NCBI GenBank assembly: GCA_001275005.1 | Contig: JWZX01001392.1 | Location: forward strand, 1-24,820 | DNA: 24,820 nucleotides | Direction: 5' to 3' | DNA from: Chrysochromulina tobinii | Taxonomy: Eukaryota; Haptophyta; Prymnesiales; Chrysochromulinaceae | Shown: positions 1 through 24,820 of the stretch, piece by piece | How the letters are laid out: each line of letters opens with the position of its first letter | Position numbering within the stretch: the first letter of the stretch is position 1 | Translations under genes and position numbers: made by a program | The notes under the pieces: model-generated | What the model saw: the letters and a program-made list of their open reading frames with translations, nothing else | Database searches by the model: none | What the model was told of the DNA's origin: nothing

Positions 1-3000
1 GGCCGGGGCGGCGGGGGCGGCGGCGGCGGCGGCGGCGTTGGCGTGGAAAGCTGGATGAGCTATGCGGTGCGCGGCGCGCGTGCACTCCTCGCCGCGATGA
101 ACGCCCTGCATGCAAGTGCTCACGACGGCGCCCTCTCCCCTCTCCCCACAGGTGCGCGCACTCCTCGCGGAGATGGAGCAGCAGGTGAGCCCAGTGCATG
201 CATGTGCTCACCACGGCGCCGCGCGCATGCCCGTGCTCACCACGACGCAACCACCCTCTTCCCCACAGGTGACCCATGCGGAGGAGGACGAGCTGCAGCG
301 GCGCCGGCTGCAGGCGATCTCGGCGTCCGAGACCGAGCGTAACCGTCGGCTCGAGGAGATGCACCAAACGGCCGCCGAGGAAGAGGCGCGCTGATGACCG
401 CTGATGACCTCTGATGAGCGCTGATGGGCCTCTGATGGGCCTCTGATGTCCGCTGATGACCGCTGATGACCGCTGATGACCTCTGATGAGCGCTAATGGG
501 CCTCTGATGGGCCTCTGATGTCCGCTGATGACCGCTGATGACCGCTGATGACCTCTGATGACCGCTAATTGCCTCCCTCATCAGGCGCGCCGAGCGGTTT
601 CGCGCGCCGCGGCGGCCGCAGCAGCCGAGGGTGAGCGGCGGAGGCGGCTCCAGATCCTCGACCCTGATTGCATGCTGATTGCATGCTGATTGCCTCCCTC
701 ATCAGGTGAGCGGCGGAGGCGGCTCCAGATCCTCAAGTTGGAGGAGGAGGAGGAGAGGCGCGTGCGTCAGCGGCACCAGCGGTGGGCGATGTCGCCTCTG
801 CCTTCACACCAGTGCCTTCACACCAGTGCCTTCACACCAGTGCCTTCACACCAGTGCCTTCACACCAGTTGGAGCCTCTGCCTTGCAGTGAGTGCACTCC
901 TCGTGTGAGTGCCTCTGAGTGCATGCGATTGCTTCCCTCATCAGGTGGGCGATCGAGGCGATGGAAGCGGAGCGGGAGCGCCGTATCTCGCTGCAGCTCG
1001 CGTGTGACAAGGCCCTAGTCGAGGAGCGTCAGGCTCGCCAACGCCAGGCAAGCGCGGCGCTTGATGCGGAGCGCGTACGGCGCATCACCGTGCTGCGCGA
1101 GGTCGAAGAGCTCACAGGCTCAGCGAGAGCCGCGCAGGTGCGATCTCCATTGATCTCCCTTGATCTCCCTTGATCTCGCAGGTGAGAGCGAGCTCTCGTT
1201 CCGCCCTGCATGCAAGTGCTCGTGACGCCGCCCTCTCCCCTCTCCCCACAGGTGCGGCGTGCGATCGCCGAGATGGAGCAGGAACGCGAGCGCCGCTTGT
1301 ACCAGACGGCGGTCCGCCAGTACGAGATGGCGGTCGGCGTCGCAAAGCCAGGTGCCATCTCCCTTGAGCTCCCTTGAGCTCCCTTGAGCTCCCTTGATCT
1401 CCCTTGATCTCCCTTGATCTCCCTTGGTCGGCGTCGCAAAGCCAGGTGCCGTCTCGACGCCCCAACGAGCCCGCTGATGACCGCTGATGATGACCTCTGA
1501 TGATGACCTCTGATGACCGCTGATGACCTCTGATGACCTCTGATGACCTCTGATGATGACCTCTGATGACCGCTGATGACCGCTGATGGCCGCTGATGAC
1601 CTCTGATTGCCTCTCTCATCAGGTACCATCTCGACGCCCCCGGCGCTCCAACGAGCCCTGTGGGGAAGTTGCCCGCCTTCCACAGCGAGCCCGGCGCTCC
1701 AACGCGCCCTCTCGCCCGCCTTCCACAGCGTCGTCGCCCAGGACGGCGCCCTCGATGACGAAGCGCGCGTCGTGATGGGCGGGTCCGACGACGACGGTGC
1801 CCCCCCCATCCCGTGCAGCATCGCTCAGGACGGCGCCTTCTCGCGCCAGCTGCAATGGGCGGCGTTTGCGAGCGGCGTGGCGGCGCGCCTGGGCGAGGAG
1901 GAGCAAGCCGAGCGCTCCAGGCGGCGCCGATGGGCGGCGGCGGCGGCGCAGTCCGAGGCGGACCGTTCTCGCATGCTCAGCGCCCTCTCGGTCGACGTTG
2001 AGCGCTGGGCGGCGCGCGAGCATCGGCGGCTGCAGCCGTTGCAGGCACACGTCTGGCGCGCGCTGCAGGGGGTCAAGGCGGCGGCGCAGGAGCTCTGGGC
2101 TGGTGCACGCGTAGAGCTGTTCGGGTCTTGGGCGAGTGGTCTTCACCTCGCCTTCTCAGACGTCGACCTGCTCGTGTGTGGGACGCCGCCTGGCTTGAGT
2201 GCGGTCGCCGCGCTGCGGTCCCTCGCTGACCGGCTTGCGGAGCGTCCGTGGATTGCGTCCATTAAGCTCATCGAGACCGCCAAGGTGCGCTGATGACCGC
2301 TGATGACCGCTGATGACCTCCCTGATGACCGCTGATGACCGCTGATGATCCCCCTGATGACCTCCCTGATGACCGCTGATGACCTCCCTGATGACCGCTG
2401 ATGACCTCTCTGATGACCGCTGATGACCTCCCTGACGACCGATGATGACCTCTGATTGCCTCCTTCATCAGGTGCCCGTCATCAAGGCGACCATGACGAT
2501 CAGCGGCGACGCGCGCGCACTCTGCCCCGACTCCTTTGTGCATCTGGACGTGTCCGTTGAGTCGCATGACCACACGGGCGGCATGACGACCACGTACACG
2601 CGCGACGTCGTGTGCGCGAAGCTCCCTTGCCTCGCTCCCCTCGTGCTCGTCCTCAAGCAACTTCTCTCGTCACGCCGCCTCAACAATGCCGCGAGTGGCG
2701 GGCTGAGCAGTTACGCCCTGGTGCGCATCGCCGCGCCCCTCCGCTGCGCCGCGATGAACGCCCTGCTGGCAAGTGCCCACGACGGCGCCCGTACCCTCGC
2801 TCTCCCCACAGGTGCTCATGGCCGCGGCGCTCCTCGGCGCCGAGGCCTCGACAGCGCCGTCGTGGGCGTCCGCCCAGTCCTGGGGCGGTGTGGGCGCTCT
2901 GCTGCTTCGCTTCCTCGAGTACTTTAGCGGCACGAGCCCGGACGCGCTGCACGCCGTCGTGGTCGACTCGGAGTCACGGCTGCAAGCCAAGCAACTCTCT

Positions 3001-3743
3001 CGGCTCAAGCTGCTCGCGGAGCACCACGCGCCACCCGCGTCCCCGAGCGCCGTGCCGAGCACGTCCCCGGCCGTTCCCGACGACGAGCCGTCGCAAGGGC
3101 GCGCTCACCACGGCGCGTCGCACGGGCGCGGCGGCGGCGCTTCCAACGGGCGTGGCGCTCACCACGGCGCGACGAGCCGCGGCCCTTACGAAGAGGCAGT
3201 GTACGCCGCCGCGAGCCTGCTCGTACAGGAGCCGAGATGAACGCCCTGCATGCCAGCGCTCACGACGGCGCCCGTGTCTTTCTCCCCCCTTCTCCCCACA
3301 GGTACGCGGCGAGCCTGCTCGTACAGGACCCGATGAGTGGGCAGTTTGCCAACGTGTCCGACTCGGCCTTTCGTTGGGGTCACGTCCAAGCCGTCTTTCG
3401 CGACGCTCTGGAGAGGCTGCAGCGCGCGGTCCGCCTCGACCCGCCGAGCAGCACCGCCACGAGCAGCAGCAGCAGCATCAACACCACCAGCAACACCAGC
3501 AGCAGCAGCAACAGCGGCTGCAGCAGCGGCAGCAGCGGCGGCGGCAGCGGCGGCAGCAGCGGCGGCGGCAGCGGCAGCAGCGGCGGCAGCGGCAGCAGCG
3601 GCGGCAGCGGCAGCAGCGGCAGCGGCAGCGGCAGCGGCAGCGGCGGCGGCCAGCAAAGCTCCGAGCGGCTCGAGCTCCTCGCCGCGCTCCTCGATGCGCC
3701 TCCGTCGGCGCTCTGGGGCGAACTCGAGATAACGTCGAGATAA
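1..3743 (+). CDS. Non-canonical poly(A) polymerase (Trf4/Cid1-type nucleotidyltransferase), 5'-partial, 11 exons
   Basis: Predicted to add nucleotides to RNA 3' ends. Exons that give one continuous frame: 1-66, 152-184, 269-385, 585-630, 706-781, 945-1137, 1252-1351, 1623-2284, 2472-2720, 2812-3200, 3302-3743 (TAA), about 790 residues visible. The N-terminus starts in a Gly run, then about residues 25-210 are an E/R/Q-rich probable coiled coil. The catalytic core begins near residue 370: FGSWASGL, then SDVDLL carrying the two catalytic Asp (about residue 390), and a third Asp in HLDVSV after VPVIK (about 456). The PAP-associated part follows, with LVLVLKQLL and, across an intron, GGLSSYAL/VLMAAALL. 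Exon 11 restores LLVQDPMSG and AFRWGHVQAVFRDAL, the usual end of this family, then a Ser/Gly low-complexity tail. The start lies outside the window. Family assignment is firm; adenylyl versus uridylyl transfer is not decided. Joining the N-terminal coil to the catalytic core rests on frame continuity only. Confidence 0.85.
67..151 (+). other. Intron 1 of poly(A) polymerase gene, introner-like family A
   Basis: GT donor at 67, acceptor CTCCCCACAG ending at 151. The intron starts GTGCGC and carries GCACTCCTCGC at 82-92; the next exon starts GTGCGC and carries the same 11-mer at 158-168. The core TGCATGCAAGTGCTCACGAC is shared with introns 6, 9 and 10. The donor at 67 rather than 80 was chosen because it keeps exon 2 in the frame reading VRALLAEMEQQ. 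Confidence 0.75.
185..268 (+). other. Intron 2 of poly(A) polymerase gene, family A (degenerate)
   Basis: Donor GTGAGC at 185, acceptor TTCCCCACAG ending at 268. It contains two copies of a GTGCTCACCACG-like core. The repeat between the intron start (GTGAGCCCA) and exon start (GTGACCCAT) is weak. The exons join in frame as EMEQQ/VTHAEED. Confidence 0.75.
386..584 (+). other. Intron 3 of poly(A) polymerase gene, GC-AG type with minisatellite (family B)
   Basis: The only in-frame solution starts with GC: GAG/GCGCGCTGATG, with acceptor CTCATCAG ending at 584 and exon GCGCGCCGAG. The six bases GCGCGC occur at the start of both intron and exon. The body (391-575) is an array of 10-11 bp units of type CTGATGACCG, CTGATGAGCG and CTGATGGGCCT. 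The spliced frame reads EEE/ARRAVSRAA. Confidence 0.7.
631..705 (+). other. Intron 4 of poly(A) polymerase gene with 29-bp perfect flanking duplication
   Basis: Positions 631-659 (the first 29 bases of the intron) are identical to 706-734 (the first 29 bases of the next exon). The remainder is CTGATTGCATG repeats and the conserved 3' end CTGATTGCCTCCCTCATCAG at 686-705. The exons join in frame as AAE-G-ERRRRLQILKLEEE. Confidence 0.85.
782..944 (+). other. Intron 5 of poly(A) polymerase gene with 14-bp tandem repeat
   Basis: Intron start GTGGGCGAT (782-790) equals exon start GTGGGCGAT (945-953). Five copies of the 14-mer CCTTCACACCAGTG fill about 801-869. The 3' end GATTGCTTCCCTCATCAG matches family B. 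The spliced frame reads RQRHQR/WAIEAMEAE. Confidence 0.8.
1138..1251 (+). other. Intron 6 of poly(A) polymerase gene, composite of two elements
   Basis: The first part, 1138-1181, is a TTGATCTCCC decamer array ending TTGATCTCGCAG. It is directly followed at 1182 by a donor-like GTGAGAG and a family A element ending CTCCCCACAG at 1251. Either one intron or two sequential excisions gives the same mRNA, SARAAQ/VRRAIAEM. The intron start GTGCGATCTCC resembles GTGCGATCGCC in the exon (from 1260). Confidence 0.75.
1352..1622 (+). other. Intron 7 of poly(A) polymerase gene, composite with duplicated exon end
   Basis: Two stacked units: 1352-1445 (CCCTTGAGCT/CCCTTGATCT decamers) and 1446-1622 (CTGATGACC array, 3' end CTGATTGCCTCTCTCATCAG). 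The last 20 bases of exon 7 plus the first bases of the intron (1332-1356) recur exactly at 1426-1450. The second unit begins GTGCCGTCTCGACGCCCC; exon 8 begins GTACCATCTCGACGCCCC. Splicing 1351 to 1623 keeps the frame. Confidence 0.75.
2285..2471 (+). other. Intron 8 of poly(A) polymerase gene, family B minisatellite
   Basis: Donor GTGCGC at 2285, acceptor CTTCATCAG ending at 2471. The body is CTGATGACCGCTGATGACCT-type units of 10-14 bp. Only GTGC is shared between intron and exon starts, so target duplication is not evident here. It joins IETAK/VPVIK inside the catalytic domain. Confidence 0.85.
2721..2811 (+). other. Intron 9 of poly(A) polymerase gene, family A
   Basis: Donor after GGLSSYAL; acceptor CTCCCCACAG ending at 2811. 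The first 34 bases align with the first 34 of exon 10 (2812-2845) at roughly three quarters identity. The core GATGAACGCCCTG...AAGTGCCCACGACGGCGCC is shared with introns 1 and 10. Splicing restores SYALVLMAAALL, which supports both sites. Confidence 0.9.
3201..3301 (+). other. Intron 10 of poly(A) polymerase gene, family A with about 35-bp duplication
   Basis: The intron begins GTACGCCGCCGCGAGCC and exon 11 begins GTACGCGGCGAGCC. The two then share GCGAGCCTGCTCGTACAGGA exactly. The 3' half holds the family A core and CTCCCCACAG. Splicing gives EEAVYAASLLVQDP; reading through instead hits a stop shortly after the duplicated peptide. Confidence 0.9.
3440..3650 (+). repeat. AGC/GGC trinucleotide tract in coding sequence
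   Basis: Imperfect AGC and GGC triplet runs encode the Ser/Gly/Asn/Thr tail of the poly(A) polymerase. They produce open frames on both strands (poly-Ala and others) that are artefacts of composition. Confidence 0.85.
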
Positions 3744-4039
3744 CGTCGAGATAACGTCGGCGCTCTGGGGCGAGCTCGAGGTAACGTCGAGCGTGGAGCC
3801 AGAGGATGAAAACTATGGCTGATCTTCGCTGCACCTCTAGCGAAATGGTTGGGATGAACGGCTCGGGTGCTCGGGATCTGGTGCTCGGCACCTGATTGCC
3901 CACGCAGCTTTATAACCACCCCAGGCGGAGGCCCTGGCACTGGCCCAGGGACGGTCACTCCACGATGCACGAACGTCCAAGGAAGCTCCCCACCAAGACA
4001 CTCATAGATGTGAAGCAGATTTTTGAGTGGTGCTGTTGT

Positions 4040-5064: not shown

Positions 5065-5472
5065 CTCAACCACGGCGTGTCTTGGTATCCACAGCGGCAG
5101 ACGACATCTTCACAGCGACAGACGGCGTCTTCAAAGCGACAGATGACGTCTTTCGTTGGGGACACGTCCAAGCAGTCTTTCGCGACGCTCTCTTGGGCAG
5201 GTGAGTCAGCGCAGCAACCGCTTGTCGCCGCTTTTTCGCGCCATCTTGGCCAGTTTGATCGGGTTGGCGGGATGGGAAGCGCAGGCTGTGCGCCGGCACT
5301 CGCGGGCGGCGGTCGTGCCGTGGCTTAGGGCGCCCGCCGTCACAGCTCGATTGCGTGTGCGAGCCCGGGCGTTGGTGGTATCGTCGTTGAGAGTGTTTTG
5401 GCATGAGCTGTGGAGAGTCTGACAGACCCTCGATGTGAGCTTTGGAAGCTCGTCGCCACACGACAACTAGAA
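5065..5472. other. Tail-to-tail spacer between FMN reductase and the BRCT/LRR gene
   Basis: It begins with three imperfect copies of an AGCGACAGACGGCGTCTTC-like unit (about 5090-5155), then the copied polymerase exon fragment. After 5205 nothing is recognised: no start, no domain, no RNA gene. Confidence 0.5.
5077..5204 (+). pseudogene. Duplicated fragment of the poly(A) polymerase last exon
   Basis: Bases 5150-5191 match 3368-3409 of polymerase exon 11 at 40 of 42 positions. Both differences are synonymous (GGT/GGA for Gly, GCC/GCA for Ala), so the peptide FRWGHVQAVFRDAL is unchanged. The open frame before it reads DDIFTATDGVFKATDDV and ends shortly after at a stop. CAG/GTGAGTCAG at 5198-5209 looks like a good splice donor. 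It could be a decayed partial copy or an exon of an unrecognised transcript. Confidence 0.6.
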
Positions 5473-8076: not shown

Positions 8077-10347
8077 TCACAGACGCAGCTTCTTGTCGAG
8101 CTCGCCTGCCACCATCGCCGCCGCCGAGCTCGAGGTGGGCTCGACATCGGCTTCCTCGGGGTTGGAGTTGCCGGTGCCGGCGGCGAGCTCAGCGAAGGTG
8201 GTCGCCTCCTTCCACAGGCGCTTCCCGAGCACGCCCTCGACGTCGTCGCGGTGGATGACCTCCTTCTGGAGCAGCAGCTGCGCGAGCTGCGCTGCGAGCT
8301 CCTTCTTACTCGTGAGCAGCTCGGTCGTGCGCTCGTACGCCGCGTTGACGAGGTTGCGCACCTCCTCGTCCACCTGCTCCGCCTTCTCTTCCGAGTAGGG
8401 GCGCTGCGAGTCGAACTGCCCATCGCCGCGGGGCGGGAAGGAGAGGTTGCCCACCTTGGCGTTCATGCCGTAGAGCGTCACGATCGAGTACGCAATGCGC
8501 GTCACCTTGCGTAGATCGTCCTGAGCGCCCGTCGAGATCTTGCCGAAGAAGAGTGCCTCGGCAATGCGCCCACCGAGCATCATGCACATCGTATCGACCA
8601 TCATCTCCTTGGTGTGCAGCTTGCGCTCCTTGGGCACGTATTGCGCGTAGCCGAGCGCCGCCGCTCCGCGCGGCACGATCGACACCTTGAGTAGGGGGTT
8701 CGCGTACTTGAGGAACCAGCCGACCGTCGCGTGCCCGGCCTCGTGGTGCGCGACCCTCGTCTTCTCCTCGAGCGAAAGGACCTTGGAGCTACGCTCGAGC
8801 CCTCCGATGACGCGATCCATCGCGGCGTGGAAGTCGGAGAGCTCGACCTGCTCCTTCTTATAGCGCGCCGCGTGCAGCGCCGCCTCGTTGACTACGTTGG
8901 CGATCTCAGCGCCCGAGAAGCCCGGGGTGAGCGACGCGAGGGTCTCGGAGAGCTCCTTGACGTCGCCCCCGAGCCGCAGCTTGGGCAGGTGCACGCGGAA
9001 GATCTCCGCGCGGCCGGTAATGTCCGGCGAGCCCACCTCAATGGTGCGATCGAAGCGCCCTGGGCGCAGCAGCGCCGGGTCGAGCGTGTCGGGTCGATTG
9101 GTGCCGGCAAGCACGACGACCTGCCCCGTGGTGCCGAAACCATCCATCTCGACCAGCAGCTGGTTGAGCGTATTCTCACGCTCGTCGTTGCCGCCCATCA
9201 TGTTGCCACGCCCGCGTGCCTTGCCGATGGCATCGATCTCGTCGATGAACACCTGACGAGACGAAGGCAAACAGGGACCATCAGGGGCCATCAGGGGCCA
9301 CCAATGGCGATCACTCGTGTTTCGATCTCGTATATCGAGCTCGTGTTCGGGTTTCGTCGATCCGCACAATGCACGGCTGCATCGCCTTGGCCTGCGCGAA
9401 GAGATCGCGCACGCGGCTCGGGCCGACGCCCACAAACATCTCAATGAAGTCCGAGCCCGAGACCGACAGGAACGGCACGTTCGCCTCGCCCGCCGTCGCT
9501 TTCGCAAGGAGCGTCTTGCCAGTGCCAGGCGGGCCGACGAGTAGCGCGCCACGCGGGATTTTGGCACCGAGGTCCTCGTAGCGCTTCGGGTTCTTGAGAA
9601 AGTCGACGACCTCCATCACCTCGACCTTGGCCTCGGCCAGCCCCGCCACGTCCTTGAACGTGACGCCCGTCTTCTGCTCCTTGGAGACGATCGTCGGCTT
9701 CGACTTGCCCATCTGGAAGATGTTGCGCCCGCCGCCGCCGCCGCCGCCGCCGCCCATCATGCCGCCGAGGCCGCCGCTCGAGCGCATCATGAAGATCCAG
9801 AAGCCGATGAGCAGCAGCGTCGGCGCAATCTTGAGCAGCTCCTGCGACATGGACGTCTCCGTGTCGTACGTGACCGGTAGGTAGTCGCGAGGCGCGACGC
9901 CAAGGTCGGCCTGCGCCTGCTCCAGCTTCTTCTCGAATCCGTTGACCGACGAGAGCGAGAACCAGTATTGCGCCTGCGCCTGCGGGACGCGCGCGCCCGG
10001 CGGGCCCGTGCTCGTGCGCACGTACACGCGCGCCTTGTTCTTGTTCACGATGACGATGCGCTCCACGCTGCCCGCCTCGAGCAGCTCGCGCCGGAAGTCA
10101 GCAAACGTAATCTCCTGCGGCTCCTGCCGCGTGGGGAGCATCTGGTAGGCGAGCGCCGAGCCGGCGACCAGGCCGATGACGAGCGAGATGGCAGACTGGT
10201 TCGGCCCGCCGTCTTGGCCGAAGAAGCCGCCCAGGCCCGAGCCGGGCGAGGAGCTGCCGCCGCCGCTTGAGGAGGAGCCTCCCGAGCTGCTGGAGCTGCC
10301 ACCGCTGCTGCTGCTGCTGCTGCCGTTGCTGCTGCTGCTGCTGCTAC

Positions 10348-18688: not shown

Positions 18689-19721
18689 ATGCTCGCGATG
18701 CCTGCAACCTGTGCGGCGGTGGCAAACGTGCGGGAGAATCTCGAGCTCGGCGGCTTCAGCTTTGAGAATACGCGCCGGTAAACAGGCCAGAACCCATGCC
18801 TCTGGCGGAGGCGATGCGCTGTCGGAATCATACGCTGCTGGCCTGTGCTGCCTGCGCTGTGGCACGGCCCGGAGCGGCCTGCGCTCCCTCGCGTCACACT
18901 CTGTGCGCACGCTCACGCGCCCTGCCTGTCGGCGCCCCGTGCTCGCTCGCAGTAACCAGGTGCTTGGTAGCCGCGGCATCGCTATCCCGCGGGCCAAGAA
19001 GACTGGCACGACCATTGTCGGTGTCATCTACGACGGCGGCGTGGTGCTCGGAGCGGACACGCGCGCGACAGAGGGCGACACCGTCGCCGATAAGTATTGC
19101 GAGAAGATCCACTACATTGCCGACAACATTTGGTGCTGCGGCGCGGGCACCTCTGCCGACACCGAGAACACCACGATGCTCATCTCGTCGCAGCTTGAGA
19201 TGCACCGCATGGCGACGGGCAAGCAGCCGCGCGTGGTGACCGCGTGCACGATGCTGAAGCGCATGCTCTTCCGGTACCAAGGCAACGTGAGCGCGGCGCT
19301 CGTGCTCGGCGGCATGGACTGCAACGGCCCGTCACTGTACACTGTGTATCCTCACGGCTCGACAGACAGCCTCCCGTACGTGACCATGGGCTCGGGCTCA
19401 CTGGCGGCGATGGCGGTCTTCGAGTCGGAGTTCAAGTCTAAGATGACACTCGAGGAGGCCAAGAAGCTCGTGCACGACGGCATCATGGCGGGCATCAACA
19501 ACGACCTCGGCTCCGGAGGCTCCGTCGACCTAATGGTCATCAACAAGGAGGGCTACACGCAGATGCGCGGCTACGCCCGGCCCAACGAGCGCAAGTCGAA
19601 GCGCGAGTACAACTTTCCGCGCGGCACGGCGACGGTGCTCGACAAGACGTTCACGCCCTCCATCGCGTCCCTACTCAAGTCCGGCGCGCTCACGGAGGTG
19701 ACGGCCATGGAGACCGCCTAA
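18689..19721 (+). CDS. PSMB7: 20S proteasome subunit beta type-7 (beta-2, trypsin-like)
   Basis: Catalytic beta-2 subunit of the 20S core; cleaves after basic residues. Exons 18689-18777 and 18953-19721 give 285 residues (human about 277). Exon 1 supplies GGFSFENTR, the conserved beta-2 propeptide motif, and the splice restores the following R-N (CG/T AAC). Self-cleavage in KKTG/TTIVG leaves Thr49 as Thr1. Counting from it, Asp17 is in GADTRA and Lys33 in EKIHY, both at the expected spacing, so the active site is complete. The C-terminus [17 protein letters not shown] fits the beta-2 arm that wraps beta-3. The ATG at 18689 is followed by another at 18698. The uninterrupted frame running through the intron has no ATG and lacks the propeptide motif, so it was not used. 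Confidence 0.95.
18778..18952 (+). other. Intron of proteasome beta-2 gene
   Basis: CGCCG/GTAAACAGG ... CTCGCAG/TAACCAGG. GTAAACAGG at the donor and GTAACCAGG across the acceptor differ at one base of nine. The boundaries are fixed by the conserved [11 protein letters not shown] sequence. Confidence 0.92.
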
Positions 19722-22808: not shown

Positions 22809-23270
22809 CGCTCTGATTCGTCATTGCCTTCCGAGATATGAGGAACGACTCGAGTGAAAGATCTCTCCTGGCGTGATTCTTACATGTAGTGTCTCAGCGA
22901 CAGAGTCGTTCGGTACGTTCCGCACAGCGGGTCATGTTGTGAGCTCACGTTTCGAGTCATTTTTCAAACGCCTGAGCACCGATAACCGGCTAATGCGGTC
23001 CTCCGTCCTGTTGACCTGTTGTCGACGCGGCCGGACGGGGACCGTCGGTCACAACACCGTCCATAGCGATAGAGGCCCTCGTGCTTCTTGCGCGTTGTGT
23101 TGAACAGCAACGCAGAAATGTTTCACAGCAGCGACGGTCCCAGAGTTATTTCGGAGTTCAGTTCTTTCGGAAACTCAAACTGCGTCGAAAAAAGTCAAAA
23201 CTTGCGAGTGCGGACGCGCCGCCCGGGGCCGGCCGCACGGCCACGACCGACACACTAGACTTGGCCGTCC
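22809..23270. other. Intergenic region, nothing recognised
   Basis: 462 bp, less GC-rich than coding DNA, with only short open frames and no domain, tRNA or repeat array. It is presumed to contain the promoter of the following gene. Confidence 0.45.
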
Positions 23271-24820
23271 ATGGTCTCCTGCGGCTGGCAGCATCGTCTG
23301 CACGGGCTGGCAAGTGTTCTCGCTTCCGCAGCAGCCGCCACAAGTCGAGATGAGCGGCTCAATAAGCATCATCGCGTCTGGGTCGTCACCTCGCTTGCAT
23401 GCCGACTCGCGGCTCGGCGCAGCTCGGCGGGCCGCCTTGGGTCCGCGCCTCGACTCGCCCGCATAATCTTCCTCGCCATGATGGTGGGCTTCACCAGCGC
23501 ACAGACCTGCACGGAGATGTGTAACTTTGCCTCCGATGGTGAATGCGACGATGGTGGACCCGGATCGGAGTGGAGCGACTGCACCCTCGGCACCGACTGC
23601 ACCGACTGCAGTCTTCGAGTGTCGCCGGTAAGGGCGGTGAGCAGCAGCACCGGATTGACCAGTGCACTCGCCAACACAGCCGTCGGCCGCATCGTCCTTG
23701 CCCCCGGCACCTACTCCCTGAGCGCCGAGCTCAGCATCACCAGGAGCGTCGTCCTCGAGGCGGCGGTGGGAGCCACGGTCGTGCTGAATGGACGAGTTGA
23801 GATCGATCCGGGCTCGTTCAGGGTCGTGCAACTGATCGGGCTCGGCTTCACGGGAGGCTGGCTCTCTGGAAGAGGCGGTGGTGTCCATGTCGCGTCCGGC
23901 ACAGTGACATTCGAGTCGTGCCTCATCTTTGGGAACGAAGCTGCCAATTATTTTGCGCTTCCCAATCCCTTTGGTTGGGGATGGGGAGGAGGAGATGGCG
24001 GTGGTGTCGCTGTCGTCGGTGGTGTAGTTGCATTCCGCAGCTGCTGGATCTACGGCAACACAGCTGGCTCGTGGGGCGGTGGCGTGTTTGTCGATGGTGG
24101 TACAGTCTCATTCTTGAGCTGTGTGATATCCTCCAACTCGGCTCCCACTGGGCCCAATCTCTATGTTGCCAGTGGCACCGTCTGCACCTGGGCAACGAAC
24201 CTCTCCGGCGTCTTCTCTTGCAATGATTGCGTCTCGGATTGCCCGGCGTCGATGCCCTCTCCCTTTCCGCCGCCACCATCGCCGCCACCCTCGCCCCCGC
24301 CGCCCTCGACTCCGTCATCGCCGCCGCCATCCTCGCCCCCGCCGCCCTCGCCACCCGACCTCACCATCGTCCCAAAAACCATCCTTGCCAACATCGCCGC
24401 CGCCATCACCTTTTTCGGCAACGCGGTGACTGATGGTGCCACCTGCGCCTTCTTTCCCTCGGGCAACGCCACGTGCGCGGGCGCCGCGGCCCGCCGGCTC
24501 CTCTCGACCGGCGGCGTTTTGCTCTCGGGTGGCCCTCCTCTTTCGCCGCCACCATCGCGACCTCCACCGCCTTCACCTTGTCCGCCCGAACCATCGCCAC
24601 CGCCACCAGCGCCACCAGCGCCACCATCGTCACCGCCACCGCCAGCTTCACCTCCGCCGCCTCCGGTTCCTCCACCTTCGCCGCCACCGTCGCCACAACC
24701 TTTACCGCCGCCACCCTTGCCACCACCCTTACCGCCGCCGCCCTCGTTGCCTCCCTCGCTTCCGCCGCCCTCGCCGCCGCCCTCGCCGCCGCCGCCCTCG
24801 CCGCCACCTCCCTCCCCGCC
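23271..24820 (+). CDS. Secreted beta-helix protein with Cys cluster and Pro-rich (SPPP) region, 3'-partial
   Basis: One uninterrupted frame from the ATG at 23271 to the window end (516 codons); a second ATG at 23478. Around the second ATG, RIIFLAMMVGFTSA/QTC looks like a signal peptide, so 23478 or a short leader before it may be the true start. Next comes CTEMCNFASDGECDDGGPGS followed by EWSDC and GTDCTDC, a cysteine cluster resembling LNR-type modules in algal surface proteins. Then a right-handed parallel beta-helix region: ITRSVVLEAAVGATVVLNG, GLGFTGGWLSGRGGGVHVAS, CLIFGNEA, GGGVAVVGG, CWIYGNTAGSWGGGVFV. From about 24255 the chain is SPPPP-rich, as in extensins or hydroxyproline-rich cell-wall proteins, broken by a short globular piece (TILANIAAAITFFGNAV). 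Probably a cell-surface or matrix protein; no enzyme motif is seen. Confidence 0.75.
   Translation, partial: MVSCGWQHRLHGLASVLASAAAATSRDERLNKHHRVWVVTSLACRLAARRSSAGRLGSAPRLARIIFLAMMVGFTSAQTCTEMCNFASDGECDDGGPGSEWSDCTLGTDCTDCSLRVSPVRAVSSSTGLTSALANTAVGRIVLAPGTYSLSAELSITRSVVLEAAVGATVVLNGRVEIDPGSFRVVQLIGLGFTGGWLSGRGGGVHVASGTVTFESCLIFGNEAANYFALPNPFGWGWGGGDGGGVAVVGGVVAFRSCWIYGNTAGSWGGGVFVDGGTVSFLSCVISSNSAPTGPNLYVASGTVCTWATNLSGVFSCNDCVSDCPASMPSPFPPPPSPPPSPPPPSTPSSPPPSSPPPPSPPDLTIVPKTILANIAAAITFFGNAVTDGATCAFFPSGNATCAGAAARRLLSTGGVLLSGGPPLSPPPSRPPPPSPCPPEPSPPPPAPPAPPSSPPPPASPPPPPVPPPSPPPSPQPLPPPPLPPPLPPPPSLPPSLPPPSPPPSPPPPSPPPPSP
24250..24820 (+). repeat. CCG/CCA/TCG codon tract coding SPPP repeats
   Basis: Dense CCG, CCA, CCC and TCG codons encode Ser-Pro-Pro-Pro motifs, interrupted at about 24361-24535, and continue past the window end. 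Opposite-strand open frames here are composition artefacts. Confidence 0.85.

Follow-up and report, generated by a model that had tools for sequence, protein, structure and literature searches.

How introns are gained in bulk is a long-standing question, and most introners have been read as DNA transposons with short target duplications; those described in 2016 by Huff et al. reportedly carry DNA-transposon signatures. In the partial texts on which all of our comparisons with published work draw, DNA-type introners described earlier are given duplications of 3–9 bp, from which their donors can be taken, and families of low complexity were filtered out (Gozashti et al. 2022, PMC9860276). Here we analyze a family of introns in the haptophyte Chrysochromulina tobinii, starting from a contig of 24,820 bp (JWZX01001392.1, our contig C546; hereafter the window) in an assembly of 53.15 Mb and 2,253 contigs. 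The window opens with a forward-strand gene (approximately 1–3820) for a nucleotidyltransferase of the mitochondrial poly(A) polymerase (PAP) type, identified by a PF22600 match, and its introns lead to a large family whose different footprint points to one-ended copying, possibly from intron RNA.

The family resembles the introners of PMC9860276 in that similar introns recur in many genes, the donor comes from the duplicated target and the acceptor from the element, and some donors are GC or GA; it differs from them in that they have 3–9 bp duplications and often inverted repeats, whereas here the duplications are 13–45 bp, no 5′ end is defined, and the bodies are tandem repeats. Elements like these could have been dropped by the low-complexity filter of that study, and automated introner surveys that discard low-complexity introns could miss such families. 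Intron gains at staggered breaks in Daphnia (PMC4202315) also leave a direct repeat of the adjacent exon, variable in length, at the far end of the new intron, but those repeats are 4–12 bp and here there is a recurrent element with a fixed 3′ end. Amoebophrya introners (PMC7789003) are likewise repeated introns with direct repeats at their borders, with the difference that the direct repeats there are 3–5 nt, inverted repeats of 8–20 nt are present, and the splice sites are non-canonical. The stwintrons of Xylariales (PMC12403724) are sequence-similar spliceosomal introns that spread, for which the available text reports neither target duplication nor splice-site co-option. In the 213 introns surveyed by Rogers and Bendich (2025, PMC11782384), direct repeats of 4–30 bp (mean 11.4) stand at or near intron borders, as here, but for several classes and not for one mobile family, and a paper on intron-rich mirusviruses (PMC12768974) defines introners, in the part seen, by similarity only.

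A literature search over titles and the openings of abstracts found no introner with duplications this long. Introners with target-derived splice sites are known, and it is this footprint, together with the one-ended architecture, that looks new; being longer and more variable than that of other intron-making elements in the accounts available, it suggests a different way of making introns. Retroposition of long and short interspersed elements (LINEs and SINEs) by target-primed reverse transcription leaves one precise end, one truncated end with microhomology, and a target duplication of variable length. Those three features match the family described here; unlike in LINEs and SINEs, the constant end is the CAG of an intron, there is no A-rich tail in the copies read, and no partner element has been linked to them.

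A sequence-only reading of the window had proposed that introns of the PAP gene begin with a copy of the start of their downstream exon. Its intron coordinates hold, since removing the introns in silico produces a single open frame. Ten introns were scored for similarity between intron start and exon start, with intron 7, which consists of two abutting parts (1352–1445 and 1446–1622), represented by the latter. The matched scores sum to 272, a total reached by one of 500,000 random re-pairings, and five of the ten introns outscore every mismatched intron/exon pair; the likeness is real. An earlier permutation in which intron 7 was counted as two introns gave 280 in 200,000; in that run the start of its second part doubled as the exon of the first and matched both itself and the repeat arrays of other introns.

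The five introns that outscore every mismatched pair, and for which the proposed matches are confirmed, are introns 1, 4, 7, 9 and 10 (all features of the gene are on the forward strand). Intron 1 (67–151) contains an element of family A (...GATGAACGCCCTGCATGCAAGTGCTCACGACGGCGCCC...CTCTCCCCACAG), assigned by alignment within the family; the core of its target copy at 78–99 and the exon copy at 154–175 (22 bp, 3 mismatches) are supported by alignment and permutation. Intron 4 (631–705) is of family B, and its left target copy (631–659), which precedes the element (660–705), is identical at 29 of 29 positions to the right, exonic copy (706–734). The second part of intron 7 (1446–1622), also of family B, has a left copy at 1446–1472 and an exon copy at 1623–1658, that is, 27 nt against 36 with one 9-nt gap and 2 mismatches (score 31, reached by 1 of 1000 shuffles). 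Introns 9 (2721–2811; copies at 2721–2751 and 2812–2842, 31 nt with 6 mismatches) and 10 (3201–3301; copy cores at 3207–3235 and 3305–3333, 29 nt with 2 mismatches) both belong to family A, and their scores were reached in none of 1000 shuffles.

The remaining introns are less telling. Intron 6 (1138–1251), apparently two serial elements—a (GATCTCCCTT)n array and then a family A copy truncated at its 5′ side—has an 11-nt match (1138–1148 with 1259–1269) that is borderline by shuffling (1 in 1000). For intron 5 (782–944), which has an internal 14-bp tandem repeat and a family B end, the proposed 9-bp match (782–790 with 945–953) is present, and borderline at 5 in 1000. Matches indistinguishable from chance by shuffling are those of intron 2 (185–268; body family A-like; 67 of 1000 shuffles reach the observed score) and intron 3 (386–584; GC donor, family B with a (CGCTGATGAC)n array), where the 6 bp that had been quoted (386–391 with 585–590) are reached by 102 of 1000. 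Intron 8 (2285–2471; family B, an array of 22-bp period), on which no claim had been made, gives no duplication signal (565 of 1000). The first part of intron 7 (1352–1445), as read from the sequence, repeats 20 bp before the splice site and approximately 10 after it across a (CTCCCTTGAG)n filler; this duplication straddles AG|GT, so that both splice sites would come from the target.

Two further genes of the window had been quoted as examples. The proteasome intron at 18778–18952 scores 11, below the mean of the mismatched PAP pairs (12.1), and offers no evidence. The FtsH intron (9253–9367, reverse strand), whose junction was read by eye and where the AAA domain is split between two frames, holds a (CCCTGATGG)n array with a ...CGTCTCGTCAG end; GTG and ATCGACGA are indeed common to intron and exon, but this match was judged weak on reading and is probably not evidence.

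The predicted splice junctions are supported by homologs that align across them without gaps. Against P0011, an uninterrupted frame of 633 residues on a 6.7-kb contig, the spliced PAP protein is gapless at junctions 1–6, 8 and 9 and has no gap beside junction 7; P0011 lacks the stretch at junction 10, and P0001, P0002 and P0003 align across junctions 8–10. The records of these relatives (source 'ena') do not state genomic or transcript origin, and the comparison is at the protein level only. P0006 (84% identity over 45% of the query) reads through the intron 10 site as GPYEEAVYAASLLVQDPMSGQ, with one copy and no intron, and at the intron 9 site reads MQVLMTAPLPLSPQ|VLMAAALL, which we take for the end of an unspliced intron. 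In P0016 (86% identity, 17% of the query), VGCRPARVLLAPLIASDCFSQ occurs twice in tandem with a partial third copy at a place where the window has no intron, a string compatible, at the level of protein, with SDVDLLVC in another frame followed by a CAG-ended element.

A second gene supports the junctions in the same way. Locus L050 encodes, on its reverse strand, a Lon protease (TIGR00763, E-value 4.9e-78); splicing at four sites gives a piece of 182 residues, joined by hand, of which 172 align to the Lon of 3m6a with no gap at the four junctions (E-value 2.2e-58). Three of these sites carry duplications of 28, 36 and 40 bp, and at two of them the new copy directly follows the acceptor of an older intron. 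At the fourth (approximately 3090–3360, reverse-strand coordinates) a 20-bp piece of target, GTGCGCCAGAGTGGACTGCC, stands three times in tandem, and the element ends in GATGGAGCAG and not in CATCAG. The Lon and PAP introns alike interrupt conserved sequence.

The 16-base end of family B introns, TTGCCTCCCTCATCAG, has 1,074 exact copies genome-wide, of which 726 are followed by GT, 221 by GA, GC or GG, and 127 by A, C or T; a reversed control gave 0 in each search. The 18-base form that includes the GT has 3,239 genome matches with at most 2 mismatches (control, 1), and the family thereby shows the introner feature of many introns of similar sequence. Stretches were fetched mostly for exact copies with GT, so the sample is not random; they hold 222 copies at no more than 3 mismatches, with 212 usable after edge and duplicate cases were removed. 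A duplication running from the first base after CAG with a score of at least 12 is present at 105 of the 212 copies, compared with 20 of 636 pairings with the exon starts of other loci. This is the genome-wide comparison with shuffled pairs that the sequence-only reading had suggested, and in this sample it agrees with that reading, as does the model offered there—insertion of a CAG-ended element with duplication of the target, whose own GT or GC becomes the donor while the element brings the acceptor. We would refine the model in two respects: insertion needs no GT, and some of the quoted examples (intron 3, the proteasome intron, and probably FtsH) are no evidence for it.

With a looser local alignment (score of at least 28), duplications are seen at 100 of 161 sites (control, 106 of 755), and 58 of the 100 begin at the base after CAG. 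Sixteen of the 105 duplications, most of them tandem units, measure at least 46 bp and were excluded; the remaining 89 span 13–45 bp (median 25), with a lower bound that follows from the score threshold. Thirty-seven duplications are identical (filter 13–49 bp, spacing at least 55) and range over 13–44 bp, again with a median of 25; these are presumably young. Such long duplications, some of them still identical, preserve the target, the donor and sometimes a trace of the source, so that mechanism, pedigree and age can be read from the sequence. At loci L058–L077, fetched after the pattern had been seen and included in the 212, a duplication accompanies 16 of 21 exact GT copies. The spacing between duplicate copies clusters at approximately 70–90 bases, which we read as reflecting minimum intron length and not a property of insertion, and of 147 cases in which adjacent copies are within 1.5 kb of each other, 142 share a strand, the outcome expected under selection for splicing.

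Family A, present in five PAP introns, has a smaller following. Intron 9 as a query finds seven DNA matches in the genome, three of them in the PAP gene (including the query), two within 2 kb of each other on C1641, and two elsewhere; each of the four copies beyond the window has a duplication (36, 35, 26 and 18 bp) beginning at the base after CAG. In a search for vectors, IMG/VR had no exact copy of the 18-base end and no relative of a PAP fragment, and the prokaryote genomes had no exact copy of a 21-base form of the end. A scan for direct repeats independent of family was too noisy, owing to tandem-repeat bodies (807 repeats, with AG before the right copy in 69 and the left in 57), and is not used as evidence.

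The elements have one defined end. Among 60 clean elements, the first 16 bases after the left target copy carry no more than 0.11 bits at any position, whereas 0.9–2.0 bits are found at every one of the 20 positions that precede the right copy; the copies were selected by their last 16 bases, and only the CTGA before these and the lack of a 5′ signal are independent observations. Terminal inverted repeats with a defined 5′ end are accordingly absent from these 60, the 37 identical duplications at 13–44 bp show no fixed short length, and similarity reaches the 3′ splice boundary only, the 5′ part of each intron being locus-specific target. Judged by its sequences, the family falls outside a strict two-ended definition of introners; it works like an introner with a co-opted donor and lacks two testable defining features of the DNA-transposon type. 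The features of retroposed elements that it does have are a precise 3′ end with a ragged 5′ end and a target duplication of variable length.

The bodies consist mostly of 10–11-nt repeats containing CTGAT, which we take to be a branch-point-like string, and each element tends to have its own repeat type, which suggests local slippage. Where these repeats predict the missing bases upstream of an element, the end of the target matches the predicted bases by a mean of 2.0 nt, and by at least 1 nt in 12 of 14 cases. The expectation is 0.405 nt for re-paired ends, or 0.70 (sd 0.27) with chance extension, and none of 5000 simulations was as high.

Sites without a donor at the insertion point bear on how the 3′ boundary is set. 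Sixty copies have neither GT nor GC after the CAG, 20 of them having been chosen because the next base is not G, and 26 of the 60 have a duplication score of at least 30 without being flagged as arrays. Fifteen of the 26 start exactly after CAG, some being tandem units, and the other 11 begin at scattered offsets; among all strong non-array duplications, 83 of 119 are at offset 0 (65 of 84 with GT, 3 of 9 with GC, and 15 of 26 others). Six of the 20 loci picked for non-G after CAG (L081, L083, L084, L085, L094 and L096) have duplications of 17–33 bp at offset 0–2, two more are array-like, and the rest show little or nothing. At some non-G sites both splice sites could be provided by an AG|G within the duplication, and others look unspliceable. 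Since duplications at sites without GT or GC also start after CAG, selection for splicing alone does not set the 3′ boundary, and the bias toward GT (726 of 1,074) is read mainly as survivorship.

Elements also resemble their neighbors. Mean body likeness within a contig is 0.417 (53 pairs), against 0.327 (sd 0.022) after permutation of labels, with 0 of 5000 permutations as high. Two sets of introns, retained by eye among the pairs listed, suggest a pedigree. The Lon intron ending at L050 2689 carries CCGATTAC upstream of TCTGATGATGACC, and that ending at 2547 carries, also upstream of TCTGATGATGACC, a TTAC after a CGA that its own target has too; these bases reappear in the intron ending at 2958, where they close that intron's own target duplication, as its exon copy confirms. 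Most simply read, 2958 would be the source, and 2689 and 2547 would be daughters that took its 3′ part, each with a different 5′ limit. A second, weaker mother–daughter case is L049 5602 to 4402. Separately, L003 was considered as a mother of the family A copies in the window, as its duplication ends in GCCGCGATG, which also occurs in introns 1 and 9; this is ambiguous because several targets have GATG.

How such introns arise can be stated with differing confidence. That elements insert and generate long, variable duplications of their targets is almost certain from the sequences. It is strongly suggested, and appears probable, that copying is one-ended, precise at the 3′ side and ragged at the 5′ side, where microhomology makes the join. 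On balance, the introns may best be explained as introners in the broad sense, that is, copies of a short mobile splice-acceptor module, an account taken whole to which we give an even chance. The module would comprise one or more CTGAT boxes resembling branch points, a pyrimidine stretch and CAG, and would insert into exons with duplication of approximately 13–45 bp of target. The left target copy would become the 5′ part of the intron and provide the donor, the element would provide the branch region and acceptor, and splicing would leave one copy of the target; where insertion occurs away from GT, an AG|GY within a long duplication could serve instead.

The family has the triad known from retroposed sequences, and the step that we propose would run through RNA. 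The template is quite possibly, at a little under even expectation, the 3′ part of an excised intron RNA ending exactly in ...CAG. In the manner of target-primed reverse transcription, such an RNA would be copied at a staggered nick, beginning from its CAG end; copying would stop at variable 5′ points, to be joined through a few nucleotides of homology, and offset nicking of the two strands would give the variable length of the duplication. The sources would often be introns of the same or a nearby gene, and a mark of pedigree could be left in daughters by fragments of the exon that was duplicated in the mother. In its full form we put the proposal forward tentatively: introns would multiply by retroposing their own excised RNA, the CAG-ended 3′ part being reverse-transcribed into a staggered nick, preferentially near the source, with the duplication supplying the donor and sometimes both sites, so that a seamless intron is made in one step. 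The genome has 26 RVT_1 matches to reverse-transcriptase domains.

Several observations weigh against this proposal. Just one match to a PF14529-type endonuclease was found, and no reverse-transcriptase element is linked to the family; about half of the copies (107 of 212) have no duplication above threshold; the microhomology set is small (14); and at the non-G sites L085 and L094 a TT separates the CAG end from the start of the duplication. The within-contig likeness comes from a minority of close pairs (the medians, 0.306 and 0.295, are nearly equal; rank-test p = 0.026), and the search for mother targets from which the Lon and L049 sets were picked gave matches in 25 of 406 pairs within contigs and in 544 of 15,771 between contigs, repeats accounting for most of them. 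In all three Lon introns the CAG is followed by GTGCTC, which makes DNA homology at the 3′ junction possible, and 13 of 77 new copies have landed precisely on an older copy's acceptor (background 0.4% per position; for example at L050, L039, L043 and L048), a placement better accounted for by homology between similar intron ends than by an RNA end.

The last two points, along with the likeness of elements within a contig, the 5′ microhomology and the variable duplication length, speak for DNA template switching or staggered-break repair, in which microhomology would let a polymerase move onto a nearby intron and copy its 3′ part before going back to the target at a point upstream of its exit, so that part of the target is copied twice; the Daphnia gains, with their 4–12 bp repeats (PMC4202315), are a precedent for repair. 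We regard this as a realistic possibility and a close rival, and nonetheless favor RNA-templated copying. The return point would have to be the base after CAG also at the 15 of 26 strong sites without GT or GC, where selection of acceptor and donor is not an obvious reason for it, and the Lon and L049 copies, small in number, do not continue into the downstream exon of the source.

The other explanations fare worse. For a cut-and-paste DNA transposon—a MITE-like (miniature inverted-repeat transposable element-like) introner with terminal inverted repeats and a duplication of fixed length—it can be said that many repeat units contain CTGATG, whose reverse complement is the 3′ CATCAG, and that introners with target-derived donors are known (PMC9860276); it is nevertheless disfavored as improbable, as the 5′ end has no sequence signal and the identical pairs span 13–44 bp against the 3–9 bp of earlier introners with DNA-transposon signatures, in the text of that paper available. 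An exact 3′ end, no defined 5′ end, microhomology at the 5′ side and likeness to neighbors together argue against a fixed-stagger transposon with terminal inverted repeats, and the sequence-only reading was right to see in the variable length of the duplications an argument against a fixed-stagger transposase. Tandem duplication of AGGT-containing exon segments, requiring no mobile element, could still explain some arrays, given that several loci hold tandem copies of target plus element and that the part at 1352–1445 and a repeat at 3703–3791 of the window straddle exon sequence. For the main set, where the intron is a target copy plus foreign sequence, it is insufficient and very unlikely, as exon duplication cannot give a shared end that recurs exactly 1,074 times. 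Chance similarity in GC-rich repetitive sequence accounts for some of the short matches first quoted, and for the main set it is refuted, to the point of being negligible, by the permutations in the PAP gene and the genome-wide excess over control pairings.

Some additional features were noted. At L018 (approximately 440–550) a perfect 28-bp duplication surrounds an element ending in CTTTCGAG; here the element would provide the donor and the target the acceptor. Toward the end of the PAP gene, a 37-nt repeat (CGTCGGCGCTCTGGGGCG[A/G]...ACGTCGAG; 3703–3739 and 3755–3791) lies around short 11-nt repeats, with AT in the left copy versus GT in the right, and may be an insertion whose donor was lost or never made. 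A short stretch at approximately 5143–5190 is like the PAP coding sequence at approximately 3369–3410 (TTTCGTTGGGG.CACGTCCAAGC) and is a possible gene fragment. The window closes with an open frame (23259–24818) that has long Ser-Pro-rich tracts, presumably like those of an algal cell-wall protein, and continues past the end of the contig.

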